Below are positions 49,657 through 63,393 of a DNA stretch of 64,000 nt, in pieces. The position numbers and the translations under genes were made by a program. Below the pieces are notes generated by a model. That model had not been told where the DNA came from and ran no database searches. It saw only the letters and a program-made list of their open reading frames with translations. Origin of the DNA: Candidatus Saccharimonadota bacterium (lineage in GTDB: Bacteria; Patescibacteriota; Saccharimonadia; Saccharimonadales; Saccharimonadaceae); NCBI GenBank assembly GCA_030528025.1, contig JAUMZP010000001.1, forward strand, positions 186,001-250,000. Reading direction: 5' to 3'. Every line of letters starts with the position of its first letter. Within the stretch, counting starts at the first letter, position 1.

Positions 49657-49732
49657 GCCGCTGTAGCTCAGTTGGTAGAGCGGCGCTTTCGTAAAGCGTA
49701 GGTCACCGGTTCGAGTCCGGTCAGCGGCTCCA
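49657..49732 (+). tRNA. tRNA-Thr (CGU)
   Basis: Acceptor GCCGCTG/CAGCGGC, D arm GCTC/GAGC, anticodon loop TTCGTAA with anticodon CGT, T arm ACCGG/CCGGT, discriminator U and encoded CCA. Its 3' end UCCA and anticodon match the UGGA bulge and proposed ACG specifier of the T-box before thrS. TATAAT lies about 12 bases upstream. Confidence 0.95.
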
Positions 49733-54015: not shown

Positions 54016-54092
54016 TGGTGGGCAATAGAGGATTCGAACCTCTCACCTCTTCAACGTCAATGAAGCGCTCTAGCCAAATGAGCTAATCGCCC
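54016..54092 (-). tRNA. tRNA-Val (GAC)
   Basis: Acceptor GGGCGAT/ATTGCCC, D arm GCTC/GAGC, anticodon loop TTGACGT with anticodon GAC, T loop TTCGAAT, discriminator A and encoded CCA. Confidence 0.95.
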
Positions 54093-54355: not shown

Positions 54356-54385
54356 TTGCACCCACCCCCACTCTCGTTATACAAT
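54356..54385 (+). promoter_or_regulatory. thrS promoter
   Basis: TTGCAC (54356-54361), an 18-base spacer and TACAAT (54380-54385); the T-box leader starts right after. Confidence 0.7.
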
Positions 54386-54390
54386 GGACG

Positions 54391-54588
54391 GTAAGTGCTG
54401 ACGGGGCCTCACCAGCCTCCCGAGCTTCGTGGGCTGTCGTGATGTGCGAGAACGTTGCGTCATGAGTGCTTGGCGGTAAGCGCCAAGAAGTCCGGTGGAA
54501 CCGCCGTTTGCGTGCAAGCGGCCCGAGACATGCGAGATTGGTCGGATGGACATATCCGTGCCAGGACGCATGTTTTTATTTTTATCAA
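54391..54588 (+). promoter_or_regulatory. T-box riboswitch controlling thrS
   Basis: Senses uncharged tRNA-Thr. Stem I is closed by TGACG/CGTCA (54399-54403, 54458-54462), with TCAC/GTGA and AGCC/GGGCT above. The 3' side of the loop between them holds AACG, so ACG (54452-54454) is the likely threonine specifier. Stem III is CTTGGCG/CGCCAAG (54469-54487). The antiterminator has helix A1 GTCCGG/CCGaGAC, the 7-base bulge TGGAACC (54496-54502) and helix A2 GCCG...CGGC. The TGGA of the bulge pairs with the UCCA end of tRNA-Thr(CGU). A terminator (CATGCG/CGCATG plus T-rich tail) ends it; CCGA may switch to pair with TCGG at 54542. Confidence 0.88.
54529..54582 (+). terminator. Regulated terminator within the thrS leader
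   Basis: CATGCG (54529-54534) pairs with CGCATG (54567-54572), with an inner GGAT/ATCC hairpin, followed by TTTTTATTTTT. It precedes thrS by 86 bases, as expected for T-box control by attenuation. Confidence 0.8.
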
Positions 54589-54651
54589 AATAATTTATAT
54601 ACAAGGAGGAGCGAGTCGGCTTTTAGCTGCCAGTGTGCAGCAGAGAAGTTG

Positions 54652-54675
54652 ATGAGCAAACAAAGCAATGAATAG
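54652..54675 (+). CDS. Short upstream ORF (7 codons) overlapping the thrS start
   Basis: ATG 54652 opens MSKQSNE and stops with TAG at 54673-54675, five bases past the first base of thrS (ATG 54668). A GAGAAG site precedes the short ORF, whereas thrS has none of its own. The thrS frame has a stop at 54653, so no earlier start exists. Coupled translation is the likely meaning. Confidence 0.35.
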   Translation: MSKQSNE

Positions 54676-56479
54676 CGAGCAGCAAGCAATGCGCCATAGC
54701 TTGGCGCACATCATGGCGCAAGCCGTCCAGCATTTGTGGCCACAGGCGAAGTTTGGCGTGGGGCCAGCTATCGATCAGGGGTTCTATTATGACATTGACC
54801 TTGGTGATGTGACGATATCTGAGGCGGATTTCGGCAAAATCGAGAAGGAGATGCGGCGTATTATTGCGCGCGATCTACCCTTTACACGCCGCGATGTGCC
54901 GGTAGATGAGGCGATTGCTTGGGCGAAGGAGACAGATCAGCCATATAAAGTTGAGTTGCTCAATGACCTGAAGCGCTCGGGGACAACTATTGCCAAAGAA
55001 TTGGCTGGAGAGGCCCTTGGTAGCGCTGCAGAAGGTGAGAGTAAGGTAAAGACGGTATCACTCTACTCTCAGGGCGATTACACCGATCTGTGCCGCGGCG
55101 GGCACGTGGAGAGTACAGGTAAAGTGGGGGCTTTCAAGTTGCTGCGTGTGGCTGGTGCGTACTGGCGAGGCGACGAGACCGGGCCGCAGATGCAGCGGCT
55201 CTATGGCGTGGCCTTTGCAACACAAGTGGAGCTTGATAGCTACCTACAGATGCGCGAAGAAGCCAAAAAGCGCGACCACCGCAAGCTTGGCAAAGAACTC
55301 GACCTCTACACAATGTCGCCACTGGTGGGGGTGGGTTTGCCACTCTTTACACCGCGTGGCACGATCTTGCGCGATAAAGCAGCGCAGCTCTCTAACCAGC
55401 TGCGTGAGAAATACGGCTTTTCCAAAGTCTGGACGCCGCACATTACCAAGAAAGATTTGTATGAGATGAGTGGGCACTGGGCGAAGTTTGGTGATGAACT
55501 CTTCCTTGTGACGAGTCAAGAGACGAGCGACAAGATGGCTCTCAAGCCAATGAACTGCCCGCATCACACGCAGATTTTTGCTAGTCAGCCACGGAGCTAC
55601 CGTGATATGCCTGTGCGCTACCTCGAGACAACGACCGACTACCGCGACGAAAAAACTGGCGAGCTGGGTGGCTTGAGTCGGGTGCGCTCACTAACGCAGG
55701 ATGATAGCCATGTGTTTTGCCGGCCAGATCAGATCGAGCAGGAGATGAGCAACTTGCTAGCCTGTGCCGAGGAGCTGTACCACATTGTTGGGATGAAGCT
55801 GCGTGTCCGCCTGAGTTATCGCGATGAGGGTGAGGGCTACCTTGGGGCACCAGAATTGTGGCAATCGGCCCAGGCTCAGCTCAAGGCAGCTGTGATGGCT
55901 AAGCAACTGGATTATTTCGAGCAGGAGGGCGAAGCGGCCTTTTATGGGCCGAAGATCGACTTCATGGCGACGGATGCGATTGGCCGCGAGCACCAGGTGG
56001 CAACGGTGCAGCTCGACTTCGTCCAGCCCGAGCGCTTTGGCCTCGAATATACCGATGAAGCGGGTGACATGGCTCGGCCAGTGATGATTCACAGCGCGCT
56101 GCTGGGCTCGATTGAGCGCTTCCTGAGCGTCTTTATTGAGCACACAGCGGGGTGGTTCCCCTTCTGGATTGCGCCCGAGCAAGTCCGTATTCTTACAATT
56201 AACAACACCGTAGAAGACTATGTTGATGAAATCACATCGGTGCTCAAAACAGTGGTACTGATGCGTCCTATAAAATACAACGAGGTAAGATATACAACAG
56301 ATATGCGCAATGAATCGCTCGGTAAAAAGATTCGCGAAGCTACTGTTGTAAAAATTCCGGTGCAGATTATCGTTGGCCCGCGCGACAAAGCCAACCGCCA
56401 GGTAAGTGTACGCACCCAGCAGGACGAGACAACGGTGCCGTTGGATGAGCTAGCGGCGTACCTAGAGGGGCTGAGCTAA
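54668..56479 (+). CDS. thrS: Threonyl-tRNA synthetase without TGS domain
   Basis: Charges tRNA-Thr. The 603 residues lack the N-terminal TGS domain found in many bacterial enzymes and start directly at the editing domain (HSLAH at 10-14 and DLCRGGH in the second zinc-type motif). The class II core follows: motif 2 in the RYLETTTDYRDEKTGELGGLSRVRS region, zinc ligands in MNCPHH and DDSH, and motif 3 with HSALLGSIERF. The anticodon domain is the C-terminal 110 residues. Codon choice turns abruptly AT-rich between about 56195 and 56365 (AGA, ATA, ACA, AAA), unlike the rest. It overlaps the next gene by one base. Confidence 0.96.
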   Translation: MNSEQQAMRHSLAHIMAQAVQHLWPQAKFGVGPAIDQGFYYDIDLGDVTISEADFGKIEKEMRRIIARDLPFTRRDVPVDEAIAWAKETDQPYKVELLNDLKRSGTTIAKELAGEALGSAAEGESKVKTVSLYSQGDYTDLCRGGHVESTGKVGAFKLLRVAGAYWRGDETGPQMQRLYGVAFATQVELDSYLQMREEAKKRDHRKLGKELDLYTMSPLVGVGLPLFTPRGTILRDKAAQLSNQLREKYGFSKVWTPHITKKDLYEMSGHWAKFGDELFLVTSQETSDKMALKPMNCPHHTQIFASQPRSYRDMPVRYLETTTDYRDEKTGELGGLSRVRSLTQDDSHVFCRPDQIEQEMSNLLACAEELYHIVGMKLRVRLSYRDEGEGYLGAPELWQSAQAQLKAAVMAKQLDYFEQEGEAAFYGPKIDFMATDAIGREHQVATVQLDFVQPERFGLEYTDEAGDMARPVMIHSALLGSIERFLSVFIEHTAGWFPFWIAPEQVRILTINNTVEDYVDEITSVLKTVVLMRPIKYNEVRYTTDMRNESLGKKIREATVVKIPVQIIVGPRDKANRQVSVRTQQDETTVPLDELAAYLEGLS

Positions 56480-63011: not shown

Positions 63012-63380
63012 GAGGCAGTCTATTAGATGATCGCTTGCTACTTGGCAAGAGGAAAGTCCGGGCAGCACAGGATACGACAGTCGCTAACGGCGACCGGGGG
63101 CAACCCTAGGGAAAGTGCCACAGAAACGATACCGCTCCGCAACACCAATGCTCGTGCGCAGTAGCGCTCGAGTAGCGGGGTAAGGGTGAAAGGAGTGAGG
63201 TAAGAGCTCACAGCGCTGCATGGTGACATGCCGCGGAGGTAAACCCTGTCGGCTGCAAGGAGATAGCCACGGATGAGTGATCCGCTTGTGGCTATCGCTA
63301 ACCGCTCGATTTGCAGAGCAATTTGCAAACTAGATAGATGATCATCCACGACAGAACCCGGCTTATCGATAGGCTGCTTT
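63012..63380 (+). ncRNA. rnpB: RNase P RNA (class A)
   Basis: Catalytic RNA that trims tRNA 5' ends. Recognised by the conserved GAGGAAAGTCCGGGC near its start, ACAGAAA in the P4-P5 region, GGTAAGAGCTCAC, AAACCC, and the closing ACAGAACCCGGCTTAT. The ends pair: GCAGTCTAT (63015-63023) with ATAGGCTGC (63369-63377). TATAAT at 63003-63008 places the start a few bases upstream. A terminator follows at 63394. Confidence 0.96.
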
Positions 63381-63393
63381 ATGGTATGATGTG

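Follow-up and report, generated by a model that had tools for sequence, protein, structure and literature searches.

The leader of thrS in a Candidatus Saccharimonadota genome of 1.03 Mb on 15 contigs is most probably (roughly 90%) a transcriptional T-box with an ultrashort Stem I that would sense uncharged tRNA-Thr(GGU), with the dependence on the tRNA deduced from the way known T-boxes work. In the window, a stretch of 64,000 nucleotides of this genome, thrS, coding for threonine--tRNA ligase, is located on the plus strand at positions 54668..56479 (NCBIfam TIGR00418, 595.1 bits versus a cut-off of 383.65) with the leader upstream at positions 54391-54588. As judged from its sequence, this leader is a T-box with a bulged antiterminator, a Stem III hairpin and a mutually exclusive terminator followed by thrS; its anatomy, covariation and mutual exclusivity and, for threonine, the agreement of codon with gene and of bulge with discriminator have been computed. 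The proposal of the initial annotation that a T-box precedes thrS in a CPR genome has been borne out, with the element belonging to a family conserved across Saccharibacteria and other CPR lineages.

Detection and anatomy of the thrS leader

At the Rfam gathering thresholds, no T-box was found anywhere in the window. Searching with the T-box model RF00230, which the initial annotation had suggested as a check along with a comparison to the thrS leaders of relatives, did not report the element, as the match at 54389-54528 obtained at a permissive threshold (20.5 bits, E=0.018) is below the gathering score of 93 bits; this match aligns the stretch 54428-54462 to the conserved CGUUA of the model and Stem III to its own Stem III. 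The comparison with relatives recovered the same element with strong covariation, which extends to every part that the leaders share. To this end, thrS leaders were gathered from relatives and 30 loci fetched; in 26 of these, the leader has this layout and contains a UGGNAC motif. Three models were used, R1 and the broader R2 of the thrS type and R3 of the ileS type, the E-values of which are rough. Since R1 and R2 had the window in their training set, a leave-out profile HMM was built from the leaders of 24 relatives with the window excluded, which recognises positions 54391-54529 at E=2.8e-20; elsewhere in the 64 kb, nothing scored better than E=3.8.

Just 5' of Stem I, a promoter is proposed by direct reading (TTGCAC, 18 nt, TACAAT; 54356..54385, plus strand), with TTGCAA/TATAAT-like sequences at the equivalent place in many relatives; it is not among the results of a strict promoter scan. 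Between 54586 and 54668, the ATG of thrS is devoid of a clear adjoining ribosome-binding site, with AAGGAGGAG found approximately 60 nt upstream. An earlier start of thrS is ruled out by an in-frame TGA at 54650, a tiny open reading frame at 54652-54675 (MSKQSNE) overlaps the thrS start codon, and the spacing of the ribosome-binding site is normal in thrS of relatives. Directly upstream of the T-box, tRNA-Val(GAC) is encoded on the minus strand at 54016-54092, apparently at the same place in several relatives, and sequence similar to this region was seen in L004, L013, L018 and L028. In order-level relatives, a hairpin without Rfam family, the loop of which is invariably UUUGCGAGA, recurs upstream of thrS or inside its terminator region (L021 1193, L023 1222, L028 1404, L029 787 (-), L030 1278 and L220 1665). 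Furthermore, the window contains a class A RNase P RNA at 63015-63381 (268.5 bits).

The structure of the leader was derived from 25 aligned thrS leaders because the minimum-energy fold of the single sequence mispairs Stem I. Unprompted, RNAalifold returned for these 25 leaders the outer and inner helix of Stem I, a CGY/RCG helix and the antiterminator helix A2; of the 20 pairs, 13 show compensatory changes. With the full structure including the pseudoknot, 89.6% of cells are paired versus 77.4% in shuffles, 94 cells are doubly changed versus 29.9 in shuffles, and the covariation score amounts to 0.457, with slid versions reaching at most 0.163.

All features of the leader are on the plus strand. 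The ultrashort Stem I (54393..54427) is a 35-nt hairpin composed of an outer helix AAGU/GCUU (54393-54396/54424-54427), a kink-turn signature with a 3-nt bulge (54397-54399) and GA 54400-54401 opposite GA 54422-54423, an inner helix GGGG/CUCC (54403-54406/54417-54420) and the loop CCUCACCAGC (54407-54416), which contains ACC; a longer Stem I, carrying the AG bulge and the distal loop, is absent. In the 25 leaders, the two helices are paired in 93.8% and 100% of cells, with both-side changes in seven of eight pairs. The subsequent IIA/B-like element (54428..54462) pairs CGU 54428-54430 with GCG 54446-54448, the latter sitting in the loop of a hairpin (54435-54445/54452-54462), and helix and hairpin together are an H-type pseudoknot of IIA/B topology by predicted pairing. 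While the CGY/RCG helix is paired in all 25 leaders with compensatory change (the varying pair being UA in 14, CG in 7 and UG in 4), the 4-pair part of the hairpin is paired in 64.9% of cells, a shortfall that is partly alignment-related. No Stem II helix with S-turn was found in the aligned thrS leaders; an AGAA...GUAGAA pattern fitting the Stem II S-turn is present in ileS-type leaders.

Stem III, read directly and folded, spans 54465..54489 including its flanking purines AGUG and AA, with the helix at 54469-54475/54481-54487; in several relatives the hairpin is absent and only the flanking purines are left. The antiterminator (54490..54529, -15.9 kcal/mol) consists of helix A1 (54490-54495/54523-54529), the bulge UGGAACC (54496-54502) and helix A2 (54503-54510/54515-54522), with both helices covarying. 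A2 ends in a G-C pair (54503/54522) in place of the G-U wobble to which the principal role in sterically sensing aminoacyl-tRNA has been ascribed (PMC7583486); among the 25 leaders, GC occurs in 11, GU in 8 and UA in 6. The terminator hairpin with its U-tract (54525..54585, -26.2 kcal/mol) includes GAGAC of the A1 3' strand, which makes antiterminator and terminator mutually exclusive. This overlap is found in nearly all of 26 leaders, and the base common to A1 and terminator covaries with both partners, as GAGAC occurs with GUUUU and GAGGC with GCUUUU. The stem III hairpin, the antiterminator with the TGGAACC bulge and the T-rich terminator of the initial annotation are all present.

Specifier, cognate tRNA and the family in CPR genomes

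Within the loop of Stem I, the predicted specifier is ACC (54411..54413), with an A as the next base (54414). In the 90 thrS leaders with R1 hits, the loop codon is ACC in 75, ACU in 10 and ACG in 4, with the alignment having failed in one; the third base of the codon varies synonymously, A or G always follows (89/90), and the bulge is UGGA in 89 of the 90. Being the commonest threonine specifier in TBDB (0.60; PMC7778990), ACC is ordinary, and the remark that ACG would be unusual, correct for that codon (0.01 in TBDB), does not apply to the predicted specifier. The genome encodes three tRNA-Thr, GGU (near 9802-9874 on contig C5, outside of the window), UGU (equally on C5) and CGU (window 49657..49732, plus strand), all ending in UCCA and with U73. 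As ACC pairs fully with the GGU anticodon alone, with the following A facing U33, tRNA-Thr(GGU) is the predicted ligand, to the UCCA of which the bulge UGGA is complementary. The complementarity of UGGA to tRNA-Thr(CGU), as initially pointed out, is real but not selective for this tRNA, since its 3' end is common to all three.

The same architecture is found before other synthetase genes, where the T-boxes were found with the same models or RF00230, with representative genes checked and the rest read by eye; an automatic Stem I finder misassigned some loci, and specifiers were taken from model alignments and directly read loops. That the loop codon tracks gene identity is the strongest specifier test and supports the Stem I loop as the specifier site. 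The codon is AUC in 26 of 26 aligned Ile-type leaders, although these were selected for AUC in the loop and some have another open reading frame directly downstream with ileS outside the fetched stretch. In the other leaders, it is GGC or GGA before glyS (11/11), GUC before valS (4), GAC before aspS (4) and AGC before serS (1), with one more valS leader (L318) lacking a clear loop. The bulge likewise agrees with the discriminators of the tRNAs of the window genome: UGGA in the Thr leaders fits U73, UGGU, which prevails in the Ile and Val leaders, fits A73, and UGGC, the usual form in the Asp and Ser leaders, fits G73. Exceptions are three Ile-type leaders with UGGA (L308, L311, L335) and an aspS leader with UGGU (L260). 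The glyS leaders, from other genomes, have UGGA, and the tRNA-Gly of the window genome have A73. The window genome itself possesses a second T-box (C9:301734-301977, L361) with loop CUAUCAC (AUC-A) and bulge UGGU, followed by a short gene and ileS. The structure of the R3 type has still stronger support than that of the thrS type, with both-side changes in 25 of 28 pairs and 97.3% of cells paired, values reached by 0 of 500 shuffles.

Short-Stem-I T-boxes thus placed before valS, serS, aspS and glyS were observed in other CPR genomes, with a cognate loop codon in nearly all (L316-L319, L338, L326, L260, L286, L334, L347, L152, L247, L249, L254, L255, L257, L261, L337, L340, L344 and L348). Nine Ile-type T-boxes (L291, L292, L295, L296, L297, L298, L300, L302 and L303) precede a first open reading frame other than ileS, for example acetyltransferase-, NUDIX- or CYTH-like, and could belong to operons in which ileS comes later or to other genes connected with isoleucine.

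Among 150 relatives, 83 have an R1 match, for the most part a single one per genome; at the level of the class the count is 122 of 295 and at that of the phylum 63 of 380. With R2, 120 of 380 in the phylum are matched (E up to 0.02); a search of 20 non-CPR genomes at E up to 0.1 gave no match, whereas the CPR record L152 was matched. R3 matches 87 of 100 relatives, including the window genome at the C9 locus, and 143 of 380 in the phylum (E up to 0.001), with downstream genes known for a minority; another R3 match in the window genome (C3:134728-134857, E=0.009) looks like a chance match in coding DNA. RF00230 exceeds its cut-off in 0 of 100 relatives and by itself matches thrS leaders of some relatives, for example G074 at 2.9e-8. 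A loose pattern scan of genome contigs gave, among the matches listed, mostly apparent unrelated coding DNA; of the 14 records tested with R1, a clear score was obtained only for the named Candidatus Saccharibacteria (L113, L114, L132, L150, L159) and Magasanikbacterium (L152). The T-box of L132 matches the one of G199 and that of L150 the one of G108, G199 and G108 both belonging to the family of the window, which points to a Saccharibacteria affiliation of the window. The part of the literature covered yielded no publication describing T-boxes from Saccharibacteria, CPR or Patescibacteria.

Proposed mechanism and alternative readings

By analogy to the known T-box mechanism, from which binding of tRNA-Thr(GGU), rejection of charged tRNA and antitermination in vivo are deduced, the anticodon of uncharged tRNA-Thr(GGU) would pair with ACC in the Stem I loop, U33 facing the next A, and its 3' UCCA would pair with UGGA of the antiterminator bulge. 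The docked uncharged tRNA would hold the antiterminator, so that RNA polymerase reads into thrS; with charged tRNA, the 3' end would be unable to dock, GAGAC of the A1 3' strand would join the terminator and transcription would stop before thrS. Points against this reading are the RF00230 score far under the cut-off, the absence of Stem II and distal Stem I, the G-C pair terminating A2 and the lack of Stem III, reported to be indispensable, in several relatives.

Some of these features would equally suit a decayed or constitutive T-box, in which the inherited structure no longer senses charging and acts as a plain attenuator: Stem II is lost, G-C replaces G-U at the base of A2, and the element itself has been lost in several Saccharibacteria, with none in L018, L028 and L029 and about half of the relatives without an R1 match. 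Specifier, bulge and switch helices are, however, preserved by compensatory change across many lineages, which renders decay unlikely. Even less probable is the ACG specifier with tRNA-Thr(CGU), encoded in the window, as the ligand, as put forward by the initial annotation on the grounds that no threonine codon but ACG lies in the expected loop. An ACG does stand at 54452-54454, the tRNA-Thr(CGU) ends in UCCA, and a few relatives (4/90) do carry ACG in the Stem I loop. However, this ACG is located in a helix, on the paired 3' strand of the pseudoknot hairpin (54435-54445 with 54452-54462), and the aligned position reads ACG in only 9 of 25 leaders, whereas the Stem I loop contains the conserved ACC, on which the covariance-model alignment places the specifier for pairing with tRNA-Thr(GGU), an outcome that the initial annotation had itself named as a refutation; ACC would form a C-C mismatch with the CGU anticodon, and the UCCA end does not tell the three tRNA-Thr apart.

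A structured leader before thrS also fits other modes of autoregulation, either binding of ThrRS to its own leader or a threonine leader-peptide attenuator. ThrRS binds its own leader in Escherichia coli, and such control of thrS is known elsewhere. With the UGGAACC antiterminator paired to a terminator, with a loop codon that tracks gene identity in the leaders of other synthetases and with no run of threonine codons in any leader open reading frame, this is considered the most remote of the three alternatives. The preferred reading is a T-box with the specifier ACC that would respond to tRNA-Thr(GGU).

Relation to known T-boxes and implications

The closest resemblance is to the class II ileS T-box of Actinobacteria such as Mycobacterium and Nocardia, with which the thrS leader shares the ultrashort kink-turned Stem I with the specifier in the terminal loop, the IIA/B pseudoknot (predicted here), Stem III and the UGGNACC discriminator; structures of class II ileS leaders have been solved (reviewed in PMC7583486). 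In contrast to class II, the thrS leader possesses a transcription terminator with U-tract instead of a sequestered ribosome-binding site, the Thr specifier ACC instead of an Ile codon, no Stem II with S-turn and a CPR host. R3 matches actinobacterial sequences upstream of open reading frames reading as ileS, in Mycolicibacterium (62.3 bits, E=4.7e-14), Microbacterium, two Nocardia and Micromonospora and, more weakly, in Rhodococcus and Streptoalloteichus. These sequences, which contain CCGG-CCAUCA-CCGG, GGAAGAA...GUAGA, a CCGU(U/C)A-like stretch and GGUGGUACC, are the class II leaders of solved structure. Based on these matches, the architecture of the CPR Stem I is that of class II, combined with transcription termination of the class I type. 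The class II search of TBDB was confined to Actinobacteria (PMC7778990).

With the class I transcriptional T-box (RF00230, for example thrS of Firmicutes), the leader shares the UGGNACC bulge, Stem III, the antiterminator/terminator switch, the kink-turn and the purine after the specifier, but it is without Stem II and without the distal Stem I, the AG bulge and apical loop of which contact the tRNA elbow. The glycine (glyQS) T-box of Firmicutes equally lacks Stem II and S-turn and has strong codon-anticodon pairing, by which the missing Stem II of glycine T-boxes has been explained (PMC7583486); the two G-C pairs of ACC with GGU may, by analogy, allow a similar loss in the thrS leader. The long Stem I is retained in glyQS, in contrast to the 35-nt Stem I of the thrS leader, which has also kept the IIA/B-like pseudoknot.

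T-boxes have been regarded as mainly Gram-positive elements, and those with an ultrashort Stem I as an actinobacterial form that acts on translation and is limited to ileS. The combination of a class II-like short Stem I with transcription termination, widespread in CPR, is, as far as the literature covered goes, a new T-box variant, and the recombination of both traits for six amino acids across CPR genomes suggests an older or more mobile origin. It is rather likely that CPR bacteria possess a T-box lineage of their own, with ultrashort kink-turned Stem I and transcription termination before at least six synthetases (Thr, Ile, Val, Gly, Asp and Ser), the thrS branch of which has shed Stem II and sometimes Stem III to give very small T-boxes, and which, largely invisible to the current Rfam model, would be a main amino-acid sensor of these auxotrophic episymbionts. 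The models R1-R3 can be used to annotate CPR T-boxes, and natural minimal T-boxes without Stem II and sometimes without Stem III probe which parts are needed. For these genome-reduced bacteria, the element might provide a route to sense amino-acid starvation.
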